DNA of 53,974 bases. It comes from Clostridia bacterium. Its GTDB lineage: Bacteria; Bacillota; Clostridia; Oscillospirales; CAG-272. How positions within the stretch are numbered: position 1 is the first letter of the stretch; every line of letters starts with the position of its first letter. Below, one piece after another: positions 43,838-53,065 of the stretch. The stretch covers positions 1-53,974 of the forward strand of contig JAFWYJ010000026.1 in NCBI GenBank assembly GCA_017517745.1, in the 5' to 3' direction. The position numbers and the translations under genes are program-made. The notes under the pieces are model-generated. The model was not told the DNA's origin, did no database searches, and saw only the letters and a program-made list of their open reading frames with translations.

Positions 43838-46636
43838 TTATTTCAGAATTTCCTTGCAGCGAGCGCAGAGGAATCCGCCGTCGGCATCGTGCTCACCCTC
43901 TGTGGAGAAGCCCCAGCAACGGTCGCACTTGCATCCGTCAGCGGGCTCGACCAGAACGGCGAGACTTTGATCCTCATTCTGATATGCAGCGGCGGGCGCA
44001 TCTGCATCGGTCAGCTTGACGCCCGATACGATGAACACGGTGTTCAGCTCCTTGCCAAAGCTTTCGAGGAGTGCAGTCAGTTCAGCGTCTTTGGTATAAA
44101 GCGTGACCTTTGCCTCGAGCGATTTTCCGACCAGCTTTTCGGCGCGTGCCAATTCCAGCGCCTTCATGACGTCGTCTCTCTTTTCAAAGAGGCGATTCCA
44201 CTTTTCCGTGATCTCGGAGAAGCAGAGGGCTTCGTCATAAGCAGGCATATCGTTGAGATAGACGCTTTCCTTGACGTCGGAGGCAAGGTGCGGGATTGCC
44301 TGCCACATTTCCTCCGCGGTGTAAGCGAGGATGGGGGCAAGCAGACGGACCAGACCCGAAAGGACGAAATACATCGCGGTCTGCGCGCTGCGGCGCGCCT
44401 TGCTGTCTGCCTTTTCGGTGTAAACGCGGTCCTTGGTGATGTCGATATAGAGTTTGGAAAGCTCTGTGGTGCAGAAATTGGTGATGCTGTGGGAGATCGG
44501 GTGGAACTCGTATGCATCATAGTAGGCGCGAACCTCGCGGGTCAGATCGTTCATCGCGGAGATGATCCAACGGTCGATCTCAAAAAGCTCGTCAAACGCC
44601 AACGCGTCGACGTTGGGATCGAAGTCGTTCAGGTCGGCGATCAAAATACGAACCGTGTTGCGGATCTTGCGGTAAGCGTCGGAAAGCTGCTTGAAGATCT
44701 GATCCGAAGCGCGCACGTCCACTCGATAATCGGCGGAAGCAGCCCACAGACGAACCAGGTCTGCACCGTATTTCTTGATCATGTCAAGCGGATCGATGCC
44801 GTTTCCGAGTGACTTGTGCATGGCTCTTCCTTCGCCGTCCACAACCCAACCGTGGGTCAGAACCGTCTTGTAGGGCGCCTGAGCCTCGCCGCATGCGCCG
44901 ACAGCGGTCAGAAGAGAGGATTGGAACCAGCCGCGGTACTGATCGGCACCCTCGAGATAGAGATCTGCGGGCCAATGCGCCTCGCCGTTGTCCTTGACAA
45001 CAGAGAAATGCGTCGATCCCGAGTCGAACCAACCGTCCAAAGTGTCGGTTTCATGCGTGAAGTGCTTGCCGCCGCAGTGCGGGCAGACGAAGCCCTCGGG
45101 AAGCAGCTCGGCTGCGGATTTTTCATACCAGACGTTCGAGCCGTGCTCGGCAAAGAGCGCGGAAACGCGCTCGATCGTTTCATCGTTGCAGATCGGCTTC
45201 TTGCAGTCGTCGCAATAGAAGACGGGAATCGGCAGACCCCAGTGACGCTGACGCGAAATGCACCAGTCGGCGCGGTCGCGAACCATCTGCTTGATGCGCT
45301 CGCCGCCCCATTCGGGGAGCCACTGTACCTTGTCGCAAGCGCGCACAGCCTCATCCTTGAAGGCGTCAACCGAGCAGAACCACTGCGGCGTTGCGCGGAA
45401 GATGATGGGCTGCTTGCATCTCCAGCAGTGCGGATACTCGTGCTCAAATTCCTTTGCAGCGAAGAGCGCGCCGCTTTCCTTCATGTCGGCAAGAATGGCA
45501 TCGTTGGACTCGTCATAGCGCAGTCCCGCAAATTTGCCTGCCTCCTCGGTCTGATAGCCGCGGTCATCGACGGGAACCAGCGCGGGGAGATTGTAGCGAC
45601 GGCAGGTGACGTTGTCGTCCGCACCGAAGCCACCCGCGGTGTGCACGCATCCGGTACCGCTGTCCATCGTGACGTAGTCGGCAACAGCCAACAAGCTGTC
45701 ACGGTCGAGGAAGGGATGCTGCGCGGTCATATATTCAAAGAAATTGCCGGGATAGGTTGCAATGACTTCATAGTCCTCCACGCCGCCCTCTGCCATGGTC
45801 GCGGCAACGAGCGCCTCGGCAACGATATAGCACTCTCCGTTTGCCGCCTTCACGATCGCGTAGGATTCGGCAGGGTTGAGTGCGATCGCCTGGTTGCCGG
45901 GGAGTGTCCAGGTCGTGGTCGTCCAGATGATGAAATAGGTGTTTGCGAGGTCGCAGACGCCGGCAAGCTTGCCCTGATCGTCCTTGATGCGGAATTTGAC
46001 GTAGATCGAGGTACAGGAATCGGTCTTGTATTCGATCTCGGCCTCAGCGAGCGCGGTCTCGTCGTTCGGGCACCAATAAACCGGCTTCAGTCCCTTGTAG
46101 ATGTAGCCGCGCTTATACATTTCTCCAAATACCTTGATCTCGCGTCCTTCGAATTCCTTGTTCATGGTGAGATAGGGATTCTTCCAATCTCCGGTGACAC
46201 CGAGGCGAACAAACTGTCCCATTTGCACTTTGACGAACTCCTCGGCAAACGCATGGCATTGGTTGCGGAATTCGGGAATCGACATCTTTTTGCGGTCGAG
46301 CTTGTTTCTCTTGATGATCGCCGATTCAATGGGCATGCCGTGGTTATCCCAACCGGGGATGAAGGGAACGTGATAGCCCGACATGGACTTGGATTTGTTG
46401 ATGAAATCCTTGAGGATTTTGTTCATGGCGGTTCCCATGTGGATGTTTCCGTTGGAGAAGGGGGGGCCGTCATGCAGAACGAACAGAGGCTTGCCCTTGG
46501 CATTCTCCTGCATTTTGTTGTAAAGATCCATGTCTTCCCAATATTTCAGGGTGTCCGGCTCTCTTTGCGGCAAATTTGCGCGCATCGGAAATTCGGTTTC
46601 CGGCAGATTCAGTGTGCTGGTGTAATCTTTTGCCAT
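43838..46636 (-). CDS. ileS: Isoleucyl-tRNA synthetase
   Basis: 932 residues, class I. The HIGH-type motif is in FSNGNIHMGTAMNKILKD, the KMSKS-type motif reads AMHKSLGN, a variant common in clostridial IleRS, and the C-terminal zinc finger is CKCDRCWGF ... FLCARCKEIL. WDNHGMPIE and GWFQSSLLTAVG are further marks. ATG 46636 follows AGGAGAG; the upstream in-frame ATG at 46696 lies in the T-box terminator. Controlled by a T-box leader with an isoleucine specifier. Confidence 0.98.
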   Translation of the reverse strand: MAKDYTSTLNLPETEFPMRANLPQREPDTLKYWEDMDLYNKMQENAKGKPLFVLHDGPPFSNGNIHMGTAMNKILKDFINKSKSMSGYHVPFIPGWDNHGMPIESAIIKRNKLDRKKMSIPEFRNQCHAFAEEFVKVQMGQFVRLGVTGDWKNPYLTMNKEFEGREIKVFGEMYKRGYIYKGLKPVYWCPNDETALAEAEIEYKTDSCTSIYVKFRIKDDQGKLAGVCDLANTYFIIWTTTTWTLPGNQAIALNPAESYAIVKAANGECYIVAEALVAATMAEGGVEDYEVIATYPGNFFEYMTAQHPFLDRDSLLAVADYVTMDSGTGCVHTAGGFGADDNVTCRRYNLPALVPVDDRGYQTEEAGKFAGLRYDESNDAILADMKESGALFAAKEFEHEYPHCWRCKQPIIFRATPQWFCSVDAFKDEAVRACDKVQWLPEWGGERIKQMVRDRADWCISRQRHWGLPIPVFYCDDCKKPICNDETIERVSALFAEHGSNVWYEKSAAELLPEGFVCPHCGGKHFTHETDTLDGWFDSGSTHFSVVKDNGEAHWPADLYLEGADQYRGWFQSSLLTAVGACGEAQAPYKTVLTHGWVVDGEGRAMHKSLGNGIDPLDMIKKYGADLVRLWAASADYRVDVRASDQIFKQLSDAYRKIRNTVRILIADLNDFDPNVDALAFDELFEIDRWIISAMNDLTREVRAYYDAYEFHPISHSITNFCTTELSKLYIDITKDRVYTEKADSKARRSAQTAMYFVLSGLVRLLAPILAYTAEEMWQAIPHLASDVKESVYLNDMPAYDEALCFSEITEKWNRLFEKRDDVMKALELARAEKLVGKSLEAKVTLYTKDAELTALLESFGKELNTVFIVSGVKLTDADAPAAAYQNEDQSLAVLVEPADGCKCDRCWGFSTEGEHDADGGFLCARCKEILK

Positions 46637-46694
46637 TGTGATCTCTCCTGTCAATAAAATTCTGATCAAATTTTTGTTATTTTCGGGCGCGGAC

Positions 46695-46961
46695 AAAACA
46701 AAAAAGTCTCATAGCATGTCCATGCTATGAGACGGAAGATCCGCGGTACCACTCATATTCGCCGCCCGAGGCGGCGCACCTTTGCGGAGGCAGAAACCTC
46801 CTGTGCTTTAACGCAGCCATACGAATGCACTTACTGACCATTGGTGTTGGGCGCATCAACTCGGAAGTGATGTCACAAAAAAGTACCGACTGCACGCTTC
46901 CACCAAACGCGTGCTCTCTGTGAGTTTTCCTTTTTCGGAGCTCTTCGTCATCGTTTTTATA
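46695..46961 (-). promoter_or_regulatory. T-box riboswitch (isoleucine) before ileS
   Basis: Minus strand. Stem I is seen in AGAGAG and the apical GGTGGAAG; the specifier codon ATC is at 46869-46871, followed by A (ACATCAC). The T-box sequence GAGTGGTACCGCGGATC lies at 46738-46754. The terminator is the GTCTCATAGCATG hairpin at 46706-46733 followed by TTTTTT. Uncharged tRNA-Ile should stabilise the antiterminator and switch on ileS, and probably lspA and rluD behind it. Confidence 0.95.
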
Positions 46962-47935: not shown

Positions 47936-48397
47936 ATGTGGACTTATGAGAAGAAATTGCAATATCCCGTGAAGATCAAGAATCCCAACCCCAAGCTGGC
48001 GCAGATCATCATCAGTCAGTTGGGCGGCCCCGACGGGGAGATCGGCGCTTCAATGCGCTATCTCAATCAGCGCTATTCCATGCCCTATGGGCAGGTCACG
48101 GGAATCCTGACCGACGTCGGAACCGAGGAGCTGGCGCATATGGAGATGGTTGCCGCCATCATCCACCAGCTCACACGGAATCTGAGCGAGGAGGAGATCG
48201 CCAACAGCCCCTTCGCCACCTATTTCGTGGATCACACCACGGGCGTCTATCCCGTGGCGGCAAGCGGCGTGCCGTTTGATATGAAATATATCGCGGTCAA
48301 GGGCGACGTCATCACCGACCTCAACGAGGATTTGGCGGCAGATGCTGCAATAACGCAAATGCAACCTTTATCAAAAAATCGCCGAAAACCCTTGTGA
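47936..48397 (+). pseudogene. cotJC: cotJC-like manganese catalase gene, 3' truncated
   Basis: 153 codons. The first 135 match CotJC/manganese catalase: MWTYEKKLQYPVKIKNPNPK, the ferritin-like helix QLGGPDGEIGASMRYLNQR, TEELAHMEMVAAIIHQL with metal-ligand Glu and His, and GDVITDLNEDLAADAA. After that the frame turns to ITQMQPLSKNRRKPL and stops, losing the last two helices (about 50-60 residues) with their metal ligands (ARATYE... and ...REVVHF in relatives). Fragments such as ANAT and YQKIAENPC appear in other frames just past the break, so frameshifts plus insertion of the A/T-rich island probably destroyed it. Confidence 0.75.
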
Positions 48398-48566
48398 AAT
48401 AAGGATTTTTCGCACATCGGCAAAACGCTTAAAATTTGCCAACCTGCTATCACATAAGAACAACAACAAGCATTTTTAGCAAAAAATCAACTTAATTTAT
48501 TCAAATTTGATAAGGACAAGCTGTTTCTCCCTAAACCACATTTCTCGTTATTATTGCTGTTTCCAC
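48398..48566. other. A/T-rich junction between cotJC remnant and island promoter
   Basis: No gene is seen. The composition turns clearly A/T-rich here, marking the left edge of the island. Out-of-frame traces of the cotJC end may extend to about 48430. Confidence 0.5.
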
Positions 48567-48595
48567 TTGACAGATTTCCCACAATATGGTATACT
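48567..48595 (+). promoter_or_regulatory. Promoter of the RNase III-viperin-Smr operon
   Basis: TTGACA, 17-bp spacer, TATACT. Transcription should start near 48602, about 200 bases before the first gene. Confidence 0.88.
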
Positions 48596-48601
48596 ATTTT
48601 T

Positions 48602-48802
48602 AGCAGAAGAATTAAGGTTATCCTTTTTGACGAGTATGTACAGCAAGTATTGCCGCTATCGAATACAAGAAGTTGATATTCGGTCATATTCCTAAAAAAT
48701 GATTGGTAATGACACTAATTTTATAGTCTCGGAGCCTCCCGAAAATTCTGCTATAGGATCGAACCGTTCCACAAAACAGAATTTTATAAGGAGGCTATAA
48801 CT
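48602..48802 (+). promoter_or_regulatory. Leader with a hairpin that hides the ribosome binding site
   Basis: AGCCTCC (48733-48739) pairs exactly with GGAGGCT (48790-48796), and AAAATTCTG (48742-48750) with CAGAATTTT (48777-48785). The ribosome binding site AAGGAGG (48788-48794) lies in the lower stem. The 26-base apical loop holds the 20-base element 48754-48773, whose complement lies after the gene. The first 130 bases of the leader hold a 19-codon frame (ATG 48636) without a good ribosome binding site. Confidence 0.75.
48754..48773. repeat. Left copy of a 20-base inverted repeat
   Basis: TAGGATCGAACCGTTCCACA. Its reverse complement, with one change, lies at 51111-51130. It fills most of the apical loop of the leader hairpin. 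Confidence 0.9.
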
Positions 48803-51103
48803 ATGTCTATTTTTAGGCAGAGGGATAGTCTTGATTGGCTATCCCTCTTTTCTGTTTCCGAAAAGGAAAAAAAGCAAAAACTGCAATGGATTCAGCAATT
48901 TCAAATGGAGTATGACAGCCAACATTTTGCATATGAGCTGTTGCAAGTTACCGGATTGAATCCACGCGATTTTCGCACCGATGACGTAGCAACACAAATT
49001 GCTTGCGAATACGTTGCCCTCAAATTCATGATTGAGGATTCCGAATTTGCAGAAGATCTGCTAAGTGCGGAGGATTTTAAAAAAGCGCAGTCTGTGTTTG
49101 CCCGCAAGCAGTTGAACAGCAAAATCCTAAGACATCTTTTGTCTTGCTTCTTCAAACTGCTCAGAGATCACAGTCGCGAAGGTAACTTAAAAAATCTTTT
49201 CACTCTGTCGATACTGGAGCAAATCAAGATCGCGCAAGAGGATGAGATCAATCGCAGTTTTGGCGCATTAAAAAAAGTGTTAGATAAGGTTTCATCGGGT
49301 GTGAAAAACAAATGCTATTTTGAGGCTGACCGCTACGTCAATGAATATGATACTGCTTTGGATGATGCATTAAACACTTTTGTTGTAAATCATTTTGGCT
49401 ACAATTTCAATGAGGCTAACAACAAAATTCTCGGTTTAAATGGTGGATCATGGCTTTTAGAGGAAAGAGGACTTTTAGCAAATGATCATATTCTCGGAGA
49501 TGCTCTCTTACGCGACGTCAACTTTTGGTCAGCACACCCACACTTTTGTGTTATAAGATTCATCAATGAAATTGCCAAGCACAACAGTATTCGCCATGCT
49601 GAAAAAGTGCTCCAGCATATGTTTGAGAATCTAAAAAGAATGCCACATATGAGCATCGTTTTTGAAAACAAATTTGCTCTCTATATGTCAAAGTATGAGG
49701 AATTAGTAAACGGTCTTGAAGCACAAGGGCGCAGATTCACCTTCAAGCGCTTGACACAGTATTGTGATATTTCCGTATTGGATAATCTTTGTTTCTGTTA
49801 TCCCATGAATAATGTTGACGAAAAGCGTTTTGAAATCGGTCGCAAAATATGGGATAACTTCATCTGCGAATACAATTATCCTCACGATGCCGAAACCGTA
49901 ATGCAATTTTTATCGGATGAGGTGGCGCGCTTTATCCCCGAAAGCATCACTGACACCAAAGAGATCGCAGTCATTTTGGATTGCGGTCCCTTCCACTTCA
50001 CAAACAAGGAGGACGATGACCGCAAGCTGTTCCGTGCGTATCATCCCGATTGCTTCACCGCAGAAAACATATGGAAGCGCGTTTATCTGAAGGCACACGC
50101 CGTTACGCTGTTGTCAGATGACGAAGCAACACAGTTTTCTTATCTGCAACGAATATTTATTGATTTAATCAAAGCCATAGAAGAACGGCTTGGTATCTGT
50201 ACCGCTCATCAGTTGGATATGTCGGCACGAATCCGCCATTATGAAAGGCTGAAAGAAAAGCTGAAAGAATTTGGCATTAAAACGAACGATCAATACAAAG
50301 AGGACTACGTCGTTTCTCTTTTGGATCGTGATACGGCGCAAATGAGCGAAGCGGAAAGATTTCCCGAGCTTGAGCAATTGGGTGACTCCATCTACGGCTT
50401 GGCGGTGGCAGAGCTTCTTTTCTACAATCCAACAACCGTTTTACCTTGGAATACCGAAAAGAAGATGCAACAGCTTTTTGAGGATTATACCCGCGCAGAA
50501 GCACAGGTTTTGATTTCAAAAAAGCACGGTTTTGATGAACTGTTTTTGCACATTGGTCTGCCCGCAAAGTATTTGGAATTTGATTCACTTTTCTTCGATT
50601 ACGATACGGCAACCGAGGAACGTTTGCAGGGCTTGAATCAAGAAAAATACCTTGCAGACTCACTTGAAATGATCATCGGATCGGTTTGTCGTGATAAAGG
50701 CTTTGATACAGCGATTCAATTCGCAAAAGAGCTTTTGCAAAAAACATTCTCCAAGACATTTACCGCCGAAATTCATCCTACGGATGAAAATAAACGTAAC
50801 ACGGACATCGAGTGGGACTATTGGGCAAGAATACTCCCGGCTCCTCGTACGGTTATGGAAAGCGAGCATCACGTTCTCTGGAATGCTCTGCACAAGGTCG
50901 TTATGACTCTTTCGCTTGGAACGGATAATAAGGAAAAGCGAAACTATATTTCTCATAGCTTTGGCAATACGGCTATTTATGGTGATCCTGACAGCTACGA
51001 TATTTCGTGGGTGTTCTATGACTATCTGCAAAGCGGACTTGATACCGTCCTAAAAAAATACGGTGACAAGGTTCGCGAAAGCTATAAAAACAAAATCAGA
51101 TAA
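48803..51103 (+). CDS. Large protein with C-terminal RNase III-type domain
   Basis: 766 residues. Residues about 515-645 match a ribonuclease III catalytic domain: PELEQLGDSIYGLAVAELLF holds Glu524 and Asp528, and LADSLEMIIGSVCRDKGFDTA holds Asp619 and Glu622, the four acidic metal ligands of the family (E41, D45, D114, E117 in E. coli numbering). About 30 extra residues lie between the two blocks. The N-terminal 500 residues are mostly helical, with no fold recognised; no dsRNA-binding domain follows (about 120 unknown C-terminal residues). First gene of an A/T-rich operon with viperin-like and Smr genes. The ribosome binding site is in a leader hairpin. Likely cleaves structured or double-stranded RNA; unproven. 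Confidence 0.75.
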   Translation: MSIFRQRDSLDWLSLFSVSEKEKKQKLQWIQQFQMEYDSQHFAYELLQVTGLNPRDFRTDDVATQIACEYVALKFMIEDSEFAEDLLSAEDFKKAQSVFARKQLNSKILRHLLSCFFKLLRDHSREGNLKNLFTLSILEQIKIAQEDEINRSFGALKKVLDKVSSGVKNKCYFEADRYVNEYDTALDDALNTFVVNHFGYNFNEANNKILGLNGGSWLLEERGLLANDHILGDALLRDVNFWSAHPHFCVIRFINEIAKHNSIRHAEKVLQHMFENLKRMPHMSIVFENKFALYMSKYEELVNGLEAQGRRFTFKRLTQYCDISVLDNLCFCYPMNNVDEKRFEIGRKIWDNFICEYNYPHDAETVMQFLSDEVARFIPESITDTKEIAVILDCGPFHFTNKEDDDRKLFRAYHPDCFTAENIWKRVYLKAHAVTLLSDDEATQFSYLQRIFIDLIKAIEERLGICTAHQLDMSARIRHYERLKEKLKEFGIKTNDQYKEDYVVSLLDRDTAQMSEAERFPELEQLGDSIYGLAVAELLFYNPTTVLPWNTEKKMQQLFEDYTRAEAQVLISKKHGFDELFLHIGLPAKYLEFDSLFFDYDTATEERLQGLNQEKYLADSLEMIIGSVCRDKGFDTAIQFAKELLQKTFSKTFTAEIHPTDENKRNTDIEWDYWARILPAPRTVMESEHHVLWNALHKVVMTLSLGTDNKEKRNYISHSFGNTAIYGDPDSYDISWVFYDYLQSGLDTVLKKYGDKVRESYKNKIR

Positions 51104-51110
51104 TTAAAAC

Positions 51111-51130
51111 TGTGGAACGGTACGATCCTA
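51111..51130. repeat. Right copy of a 20-base inverted repeat
   Basis: TGTGGAACGGTACGATCCTA, 19 of 20 bases complementary to 48754-48773. Its last part (GATCCTACC, 51124-51132) can instead pair with GGAGGATC (51153-51160), the ribosome binding site of the viperin-like gene. Confidence 0.9.
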
Positions 51131-51164
51131 CCATAATCAAAAACAGATTTTTGGAGGATCAAAA

Positions 51165-52013
51165 ATGAACGCTTATTCCGTGGTAAATTACCATATCACA
51201 AACCACTGCAACTACCGTTGCGCCTACTGCTTTGGCAAATTTGACGGACAAGAAAATCCGTCGCTTGACAAAGCAAAAAATATTATTGATAACATTGCCT
51301 CGTATTTCAAAGCTAATCAAATTCCAAATGGTCGAATCAATTTTGCAGGCGGAGAGCCGATGCTATATCCGAAGCTTGATGATTTGATCTGTTACACGCA
51401 TTCCCTTGGTATTTCCGTATCTATTGTTACCAACGGCTCCTTGTTAACACCAGAACGCATTCACTCTTGGAATGGATTGGTTTCCTGCATTGGAATCAGT
51501 ATTGATTCTCTATGCGAAAACACCAACATACAGATCGGGCGATGCTGTCGTGGCTCCGTAAAAACAATGGAGGATTGGCTCGCCATTGCAACCGCTATTC
51601 ATGAATGCGGTATTGCTTTGAAGATCAACACCGTGGTATCAAAGCTAAACATTCAGGAGAATCTTCTTCCGCTCTACCATGCAATAGCTCCTAACAAAAT
51701 TAAATTGTTGCAAATGCATTTGATCAAAGGGATCAATGATTGGGCAAAACCATATGAAATCACTAAACGAGAATTTGATGATTTTTGTGAGCGTCATAGT
51801 TCAGCGCCTTCTGTCATTGTCTCAGAGCCTTGCGGAAGTATGGAAAATTCCTACTTAATGATCAATCCCGTTGGCAACGTGCAATTGAATAATAACGGGA
51901 TATACGAGTGCTATGGAAATTGTTGCGACACACCGCTTTGCGAGATTATGAAATCGGTTCCGATTGATGCGGATAAATTCAACTCCAGATATGTTCGGGA
52001 GGTGAAGCCATGA
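51165..52013 (+). CDS. Viperin-family (pVip) radical SAM protein
   Basis: 282 residues. Cys15, Cys19 and Cys22 in CNYRCAYC bind the 4Fe-4S cluster; RINFAGGEPML (GGEP at 62-65), SIVTNGSLL, GISIDSLCENTNIQIGR, LKINTVVSKLNIQENL, LLQMHLIKGIND, EFDDFCERH and MENSYLMINPVG line up block by block with human viperin motifs. Viperins turn a nucleoside triphosphate into its 3'-deoxy-3',4'-didehydro form, a chain terminator; prokaryotic viperins are antiphage. It has no N-terminal amphipathic helix. A GGAGG site precedes it, and the stop overlaps the Smr gene by 4 bp. The nucleotide used cannot be told. Confidence 0.88.
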   Translation: MNAYSVVNYHITNHCNYRCAYCFGKFDGQENPSLDKAKNIIDNIASYFKANQIPNGRINFAGGEPMLYPKLDDLICYTHSLGISVSIVTNGSLLTPERIHSWNGLVSCIGISIDSLCENTNIQIGRCCRGSVKTMEDWLAIATAIHECGIALKINTVVSKLNIQENLLPLYHAIAPNKIKLLQMHLIKGINDWAKPYEITKREFDDFCERHSSAPSVIVSEPCGSMENSYLMINPVGNVQLNNNGIYECYGNCCDTPLCEIMKSVPIDADKFNSRYVREVKP

Positions 52014-52348
52014 GCGCATATACCGAGATCAATATCAAAGAAGGAATGCCGATGGCGGCAGATGCCTTGAATTATTTGAAATCGTCTATAGAGCGTAGCC
52101 GAAGAAAACGTTACGGTTGTGTTTTGATTATTCACGGCTACGGAAGTACCGGCAAAGGCGGAGTTATTCATGACAAAGCTCGCCAATGGCTCAAAGCACA
52201 GGAGCGAAACGGTAAAATGAAAGCCGTAATTTATGGAGAAGATTTTTCGATATATAATGCGCAAGCAAGAGAATTGAAAAAACGATATCCCGAATTAGAA
52301 CAACTTTTTCGGATATGCAATCACGGCGTTACAGTGGTAGAATTGTAA
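52010..52348 (+). CDS. Smr-domain protein
   Basis: 112 residues that form little more than an Smr (small MutS-related) domain: TEINIKEGMPMAADALNYLK, then the core CVLIIHGYGSTGKGGVIHDK (the HGxG pattern) and a C-terminal LFRICNHGVTVVEL. Smr domains bind or cut DNA or RNA, for example in MutS2 and in Cue2-type ribosome rescue. The ATG overlaps the viperin-like stop, so the proteins are probably made together. The internal sequence LKKRYPELEQLFR looks helical. Activity unknown. Confidence 0.82.
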   Translation: MSAYTEINIKEGMPMAADALNYLKSSIERSRRKRYGCVLIIHGYGSTGKGGVIHDKARQWLKAQERNGKMKAVIYGEDFSIYNAQARELKKRYPELEQLFRICNHGVTVVEL

Positions 52349-52361
52349 GCAAACAAAAATC

Positions 52362-52396
52362 GAGGGCTGACGAAACAACTCGTCAGCCCTCTTTGT
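52362..52396. terminator. Bidirectional terminator at the island's right edge
   Basis: GAGGGCTGACGA pairs exactly with TCGTCAGCCCTC around AACAAC; TTTGT follows on the plus strand and GATTTTTG on the minus strand. Confidence 0.9.
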
Positions 52397-52402
52397 ATAC
52401 TA

Positions 52403-53065
52403 TTACTTAAACGACGGCGCGTGCGTCTCACCAGTCGCAAACGTATTCGGTCCGGGGTTCGACATTGAGAAATACATCTTCGCCGCTTTCGTCGTACCGA
52501 AATCACGGTTTGAGCCCGTTTCCTGCACCTTGTTGAAGGCATCACGGAACATCTGGTTGTGCGCTTCCTCACGGTTAAGCAGAAAATCGATGGTCTCTCT
52601 GACCTTCTTATCCTCAATCTGACGGTAGAGATATTCGTAAACCACCTTGGCTCTCTGTTCGGATGCAATATTGGAAAGCAGATCAGCACACAGGTCGCCC
52701 GTGACGGTCACGTAATCCGCCGTCCAAGAGTATCCTGAAGAATTGATGAGTCCGGGATTCAGACCGAGCAGAACGTGCGTCTGCACCTCGCCCGCCTGCA
52801 CTTTGGTTGCGTCCACGTCGTGACCGTTGAGCAGATTGATGGTCTGCGCCACCATTTCCATGTGTCCAAGCTCCTCCGCGGCTATGTCAAGAAACAAGTC
52901 CTTGATCTCGGGATCTTTAATTCTGAAGCTCTGCGACATATACTGCATAGCCGCCTTCAATTCGCCATTGCCGCCGCCAAGCTGCTCCTGAAGCAACACC
53001 GCATACTGCGGATTTGGTCTCTCCACCTCTACGGGATGAAATAACATTTTTTCGTGTTTGAACAT
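52403..53065 (-). CDS. Manganese catalase family protein (CotJC-like)
   Basis: 220 residues, complete. MFKHEKMLFHPVEVERPNPQ, QLGGGNGELKAAMQYMSQSF, AAEELGHMEMVAQTINLL, NIASEQRAKVVYEYLYRQI and NREEAHNQMFRDAF carry the Glu/His ligands of a dimanganese site. Manganese catalases remove hydrogen peroxide; CotJC-type members sit in the spore coat. It is a distant relative of the broken gene at 47936, in the opposite direction, and the two now flank the island. GGAGG precedes the ATG. No clear vegetative promoter was found; a TTTCCCG...CGGGGGAAA hairpin lies in the leader. Confidence 0.9.
   Translation of the reverse strand: MFKHEKMLFHPVEVERPNPQYAVLLQEQLGGGNGELKAAMQYMSQSFRIKDPEIKDLFLDIAAEELGHMEMVAQTINLLNGHDVDATKVQAGEVQTHVLLGLNPGLINSSGYSWTADYVTVTGDLCADLLSNIASEQRAKVVYEYLYRQIEDKKVRETIDFLLNREEAHNQMFRDAFNKVQETGSNRDFGTTKAAKMYFSMSNPGPNTFATGETHAPSFK

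Follow-up and report, generated by a model that had tools for sequence, protein, structure and literature searches.

What switches bacterial viperins on, and what detects phage for them, are to our knowledge open questions. They are raised again by a three-gene operon in a 53,974-nucleotide stretch of DNA from a Clostridia bacterium (contig JAFWYJ010000026.1 of assembly GCA_017517745.1, positions 1 to 53,974 of the forward strand; this whole stretch is called the window below). The operon, a cassette of gut bacteria, encodes a large protein with an RNase III-type domain (gene 1), a prokaryotic viperin or pVip (gene 2) and a stand-alone Smr protein (gene 3). We consider it reasonably probable that these genes are a horizontally moving anti-phage system built round the viperin and working by the mechanism proposed below. 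A role in phage defence is likely and is argued for, at the level of sequence, by the neighbouring defence genes and by the change of locus between genomes. New here are the set of viperin partners, a leader conserved in four operons and the position of the operon at one end of a serine-recombinase element. As it recurs at unrelated sites and rides on an element with many anti-phage genes, the operon appears to represent a further form of defence by viperin, so far undescribed.

A prokaryotic viperin and its two partners

Gene 2 scored 269.4 bits with the curated viperin model NF038283 (cut-off 180) and matched the PADLOC pVip model at 9.1e-78. The Radical_SAM Pfam model was also over its cut-off, and solved viperins were among the best structure matches of the protein, as judged by sequence. 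The viperin motifs listed in a first-pass annotation of this DNA (CNYRCAYC, AGGEPML, SIVTNGS, IDS...IGR and KINTVV) were all present in the translation; CNYRCAYC is the radical SAM CxxxCxxC motif of the protein, and its three Cys are invariant in alignment A2. In a tree of 20 proteins, all of them viperins, the four operon viperins formed one group (support 99/97). Family models and tree together place this radical SAM protein among the viperins and not outside their clade. A further tree, to which five other radical SAM proteins from the order had been added, was not relied on, since it placed one of them among the viperins at the end of a very long branch. Gene 2 scored higher with the model for viperins that lack an associated kinase (259.3 bits) than with the kinase-associated model (236.1 bits); in addition, no nucleotide kinase gene was found in the operon with Pfam, and gene 2 is thus not classed as a kinase-associated pVip.

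The RNase III model PF00636 was matched in 4 of 4 full-length gene 1 homologues, and residues E524, D528, D619 and E622 of gene 1 are invariant across the four. By comparison with the RNase III family, we take these residues to be the catalytic carboxylates. They fall in two segments that a four-sequence profile aligned with solved RNase III, in a weak match (E 3e-4). The RNase III-type active site on an unmatched N-terminal region of about 500 residues, as it had been read at first, is borne out by the model and by the four carboxylates. No family model scored above its cut-off in this N-terminal part (Pfam, PADLOC and NCBI-type curated models), where weak matches to DUF4276 (0.025) and to a hairpin domain (0.12) were not significant. 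Gene 1 is like bacterial RNase III (rnc) in the RNase III domain and in its active-site-type residues, but its N-terminal part is longer by about 500 residues, Pfam showed no double-strand RNA-binding domain in the protein or its homologues, and its score with the rnc equivalog TIGR02191 (27.1 bits) was far below the cut-off of 166.25. Double-stranded RNA is the probable substrate of the large protein, and it might come from phage, from the leader of the operon or from both.

The window protein is 82% identical overall to that of L015, the one gene 1 relative given by a scan of genome contigs, and 38% identical at residues 193-240. Across the four homologues 1 of 30 residues is invariant at positions 211-240, 2 of 30 at 31-60 and 3 of 30 at 361-390. 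A fast-changing patch of this kind could be a recognition surface. Relatives of gene 1 were not found in phage records, nor in viral contigs by a pattern scan, and a PHROG of unknown function matched its RNase III part weakly (3.6e-5). They were not found in plasmids either, where the homologue of genome G1013 matched only an ordinary RNase III gene (7e-4). A phage origin of the operon was rejected because phage records held no gene 1 relative and no match to gene 2 at 1e-10, and plasmid spread was rejected because the search gave the large protein no plasmid relatives.

Gene 3 was first described as a stand-alone Smr domain, and PF01713 agrees with this (34.9 bits, cut-off 25.7; 37.7 bits in G1013 and 39.5 in G1099). 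Smr proteins elsewhere are nucleases or RNA binders. Since a related Smr protein, 40% identical, is found by itself in a different family of the order, gene 3 may be a recruited helper.

Passages of two papers describe viperins as producing chain-terminating nucleotides (PMC12926258, PMC10865869). Gene 2 is a member of the prokaryotic viperins treated there by family models and grouping, whereas the operon differs from those passages in its partner genes, in its conserved leader and in having no kinase neighbour. The nearest described case is that of the RNase toxins HicA and RelE, which adjoin some pVips according to part of PMC10865869. Both arrangements have an RNase-type gene beside the pVip; in the present one, however, it is an RNase III domain on a large protein, together with Smr, and at the thresholds applied neither gene 1 nor gene 3 was matched by a model for HicA or RelE (Pfam, PADLOC, curated models). 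The passage on RNase III in the defence review PMC12926258 concerns CRISPR. Among the matches listed by full-text searches, a set of viperin, RNase III and Smr was not in the titles or in the abstracts shown, the neighbour tables of the original pVip papers lying outside their scope, and the search for viperin with 'Smr domain' returned no paper. To the extent of these titles and abstracts, the first impression that no described system has this gene set still stands.

Distribution and conservation of the gene set

Counting the window's own genome each time, the large protein was found in 3 of the 35 genomes of the genus, in 3 of the 395 of the family (two-sequence profile), in 1 of the 394 of the order and in 1 of the 391 of the class, the last besides two borderline local matches at E ~8e-4. 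A housekeeping role in RNA processing was rejected, as the large protein is rare and stands at differing loci. In L015 the complete set stands at the cotJ site where the window has it; L015 and G795:C26, equal in length, share the stretches compared and were counted as one. In G1013 and G1099, two species of another genus, a full-length gene 1 is followed in the same order by a viperin (PADLOC pVip) and an Smr gene (Smr model). The large protein is 46% identical to that of the window in both, the viperin 57 and 53% and Smr 67 and 64%. Viperin and Smr stand behind gene 1 in all four full-length homologues, with order and overlaps kept.

The loci themselves differ. The cotJ genes surround the operon in the window and in L015, a WYL regulator (Pfam) lies upstream in G1013, and an ABC-F-like gene and fatty-acid-type genes surround it in G1099; around G1013 and G1099 all names but WYL/WCX, Smr and viperin were given by eye. 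WYL regulators and defence islands are dealt with in passages of PMC9122601. The set is therefore not confined to close relatives, as two genomes of another genus have it at other loci, within one bacterial family. Between the window and L015 synonymous divergence was 0.14 for the viperin and 0.03 for Smr, against 0.53 for the neighbouring cotJC2, and this near-identity despite the divergence of cotJC2 suggests a recent exchange of the 3' part of the operon.

The neighbourhoods of 16 other pVip loci were compared, namely those of 11 of 14 plasmid pVips and of the five best-covering of 11 viral-contig relatives. Of the 11 plasmid pVips, 4 have an annotated kinase gene as a neighbour. A crude motif search of the 16 loci gave a single Smr-like match, which was not convincing. 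On a Treponema saccharophilum plasmid (L008:2444-6807) the pVip is the last of a closely spaced group of genes, the others being those for a nucleotidyltransferase, a PEP/pyruvate-binding protein and a cysteine desulfurase, and on two Pseudoalteromonas plasmids (L010:4977-7249, L078:4977-7240) it is accompanied by a DUF4145 gene, with a 4-nucleotide overlap in both.

An integrative element in cotJC

The genes flanking the operon are of the CotJA/CotJB/Mn-catalase (CotJC) type by Pfam. The first-pass placing between spore-coat-type genes holds in this respect, but the left cotJC is not whole, being interrupted after about residue 136 by a mobile element. The missing part of cotJC1 (residues 133-202) is on contig C53 of the same genome (L091 near 6830), directly behind the gene for a 519-residue serine recombinase. 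The bases CAGA are common to both cotJC1 junctions (C26 and C53), so that a split gene and a recombinase at the junction were both found. G+C content was 0.408 at 48343-52400 and 0.519 at 1-48342 of the window, and at the C53 junction it was 0.413 on the recombinase side and 0.519 beyond. Of ten proteins submitted to PADLOC from the C53 part, the presumed other end of the element, nine matched models of this defence-gene collection, those of type I restriction among them (Table 1).

The left end, of about 187 bp, is common to 5 of the 35 genomes of the genus, the window's own included. Among 20 cotJ regions, several of them on contigs that end early, cotJC2 was seen only beside truncated copies of cotJC1, and cotJC1 is uncut in genomes such as G357, G789, G768, G783 and G771. 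Both junctions are present in G781, as is a recombinase of 96% identity, with no operon at the left end; in this genome and in G793 only a terminator lies between truncated cotJC1 and cotJC2. In G769 (L057:2486-6332) unrelated genes stand between the two, and a different sequence follows the cut. Since G781 has junctions and recombinase without the operon, we take the latter, in all likelihood, to be cargo carried at the element's left end. The element would measure at least 31 kb, with 5.6 kb in the window and 25.8 kb on C53.

Prophage-like elements in sporulation genes are described for SPbeta in spsM (PMC4191935) and for yin in yabG (PMC10747680). The present element likewise lies inside a sporulation gene, with a serine recombinase at one junction, whereas its target is cotJC and it carries a second cotJC and defence genes. 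A CotJC-like gene adjoins a prophage in C. difficile according to part of PMC11222575.

Table 1. Features of the operon and of the element that carries it, in window coordinates unless another contig is named.
Feature	Position	Strand	Remarks
5' part of cotJC1, interrupted by the element	47936-48342	+	residues 1-136 of intact CotJC1; ends with junction bases CAGA
Left end of integrative element, conserved non-coding	48343-48530	.	same place in G787, G793, G781, G795
Operon promoter TTGACA-17-TATACT	48567-48595	+	consensus match 11/12; TTGACA box aligned in 4/4 operons
Conserved leader, about 200 nucleotides	48596-48802	+	aligns in four operons, gene 1 ~46% identical between genera
Leader motif ATACAAGA(A/T)GTTG	48663-48675	+	4/4 operons
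Hairpin masking gene 1 Shine-Dalgarno (AGCCTCC with GGAGGCT)	48733-48796	+	z -4.90 window, -3.43 L015
Leader loop complementary to gene 1-2 spacer	48754-48773	+	95% over 20 nucleotides
Gene 1, RNase III-type large protein	48803-51103	+	766 residues
Terminator-like hairpin and T run, codons 6-16 of gene 1	48819-48848	+	12 pairs
Region of highest variability in gene 1, residues 177-240	49331-49522	+	low identity, few invariant residues
RNase III domain, residues 523-631 of gene 1	50369-50695	+	PF00636, 28.9 bits, cut-off 27
Spacer arm complementary to leader loop	51111-51130	+	complementarity search
Hairpin masking viperin Shine-Dalgarno	51124-51160	+	z -2.99 window, -2.64 L015
Gene 2, prokaryotic viperin	51165-52013	+	282 residues
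Gene 3, stand-alone Smr protein	52010-52348	+	112 residues
Terminator	52362-52391	both strands by sequence	12 exact pairs
cotJC2, second cotJC carried by the element	52403-53065	-	Mn_catalase/CotJC-type
PADLOC matches on C53	L098 and L091, G000:C53:1-25830		PDC-S53, bSEFIR, HsdR, HsdS, HsdM, KwaB, PDC-S14, PDC-S72 (Fic), PDC-M13B

Promoter, leader RNA and hairpins

The basic layout first reported, with a promoter, three same-strand genes, an overlap of 4 nucleotides between genes 2 and 3 by their open reading frame (ORF) coordinates and a terminator, all in A/T-rich DNA, was seen again at the same places. In a promoter scan promoter-like sites were overall at chance level (9 found, 10.0 expected); the TTGACA box of the operon is at the equivalent place in all three relatives. 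Outside the operon, a T-box leader (46725-46960, minus strand) lies upstream of a 952-residue ORF (43838-46696) that by eye is isoleucyl-tRNA synthetase, an ordinary arrangement.

The alignment of the four leaders keeps the motif ATACAAGA(A/T)GTTG, the GCCTCC block and a hairpin-forming early coding sequence, and no Rfam family reached its cut-off in the leader. Folding gave the Shine-Dalgarno site of gene 1 an unpaired probability of about 0 and that of the viperin one near 0. The inner 10 pairs of the terminator-like hairpin were formed in 40 of 40 cells over the four operons, and slid versions of it in only 30-60%; in G1099 one A-U pair has become G-C, both changes altering the protein. An antiterminator between the 5' end of the leader and the terminator arm is not claimed, being weak in G1013.

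A loop of the leader is complementary to the spacer between genes 1 and 2, with 12 of 13 positions in the window and 13 of 13 in both L015 and G1013, the next best site of the transcript having 9. The spacer is the best transcript match of the loop in all three operons having a spacer, and in G1013 one base is altered on both sides of the match. By duplex energy the spacer beats all 452 (window) and all 461 (G1013) other segments, and composition shuffles equalled the pairing in 0 of 300 cases in each of the three operons. G1099 has no spacer and no such loop, and its viperin start is unremarkable in leader pairing (79/444). Ordinary folding of leader and spacer gave only two local hairpins, by a method that cannot draw loop contacts. 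The palindrome was also considered as a genus-wide operator and this was rejected, as strong matches to a 74-base spacer query (E < 1e-20) were confined to the three genomes that have gene 1, all others being at E >= 0.0036.

Proposed mechanism and alternatives

The mechanism that we propose would begin with a leader that keeps the operon down until infection, by means of the terminator-like hairpin in the first codons and of the masking of both start sites; base pairing between leader loop and spacer could then free the start site of the viperin. The viperin, to judge from its family, would turn a nucleotide triphosphate into a chain terminator and stop phage transcription. The large protein would act as an endonuclease on double-stranded RNA, its variable N-terminal part perhaps making contact with a trigger, and it might cut structured phage RNA, hairpins of its own mRNA, or both, while Smr would assist by RNA binding or trimming. 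In a more specific form, which we think rather unlikely, the large protein would be a bacterial, non-CRISPR sensor of double-stranded RNA as well as a nuclease, restraining its own mRNA through the leader hairpins. Phage double-stranded RNA would titrate it, the leader would pair with the spacer, the viperin start would open and viperin would be made only on infection.

That the large protein controls its own operon is about as natural a reading as that it senses or cuts phage RNA. It might be mainly a post-transcriptional regulator that sets the viperin level by binding and cutting either the hairpin of the leader or the duplex of leader and spacer, phage RNA perhaps drawing it away so that viperin is made; we regard this as possible, while leaning against it. 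The conserved hairpins at both start sites, the place of the spacer as best complement of the loop and the change matched on both sides in G1013 are consistent with such a role, and a passage of PMC3386247 describes how RNase III of S. aureus cleaves a stem-loop that lies within the coding sequence of its mRNA. However, an extra part of about 500 residues exceeds the needs of self-control, spacer and loop are missing from G1099, and cleavage is only a prediction. The two inverted copies could also be DNA operators for a repressor, with RNA pairing as a by-product, and both window copies do fit GGAWCGNNNCGWTCC, being its sole exact matches in the window. Yet in L015 and G1013 the symmetry is weaker and the complementarity full, and the copies adjoin start codons, not the promoter; we consider operators improbable.

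Other alternatives concern defence itself. The viperin might be the sole working defence gene, the large protein and Smr being passengers or a toxin-like arrest module, as would suit the viperins seen without RNase III at the 16 other loci in the crude search and the HicA and RelE toxins that stand beside some pVips in the passages cited (PMC10865869); we doubt it, since order and overlaps are kept in 4 of 4 operons at about 46% protein identity between genera. Improbable too, in our judgement, is an operon for RNA processing or stress that has recruited a radical SAM enzyme and has no part in defence. The lone Smr relative of another family and the MATE gene that follows the end of gene 1 in G770 would fit it, but the set is patchy and mobile, it includes a viperin and it is carried by an element with defence genes.

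The reading of the operon as a mobile anti-phage system with the mechanism given above has several observations against it. The first-pass annotation had proposed to count how often the RNase III and Smr genes accompany pVip genes; they do so in the four full-length homologues, but the crude motif search found no RNase III signature at the 16 other pVip loci. As, moreover, only 1 of the 394 genomes of the order, the window's own, passed the viperin cut-off, the new gene set represents one lineage of viperins. All copies of the operon that were seen come from a single family, and the large protein is as rare in the order as the viperin, with no strong match beyond the window's own in the 391 genomes of the class. 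In G770 (L023:1-1561) gene 1 is cut off by the edge of the contig, so that no more than its final 56 residues (93% identical) are present, followed by a spacer with 90% identity over 71 bases, and a MATE gene begins in the place of the viperin; the spacer hairpin ahead of it masks more weakly (z -2.2), and the transporter is possibly a cargo swap. With respect to the element, we infer from the two cotJC1 parts alone that the C26 and C53 parts belong together, and G795 has operon and left end but only a 29% identical recombinase, located elsewhere. Finally, covariation in the terminator-like hairpin was not above shuffles (114/500; four sequences), and in L015 the pairing of the spacer with the leader is equalled by 12 of 452 other segments.

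Implications for viperin defence

A viperin behind an RNase III-domain protein and a folded leader offers a small, testable system for viperin activation. It adds an uncharacterised region of about 500 residues that may be a sensor, and also a mobile element in a spore-coat gene whose cargo changes between genomes. If the RNA-sensing form of the mechanism were true, a single mobile operon would couple the sensing of RNA to the output of viperin.

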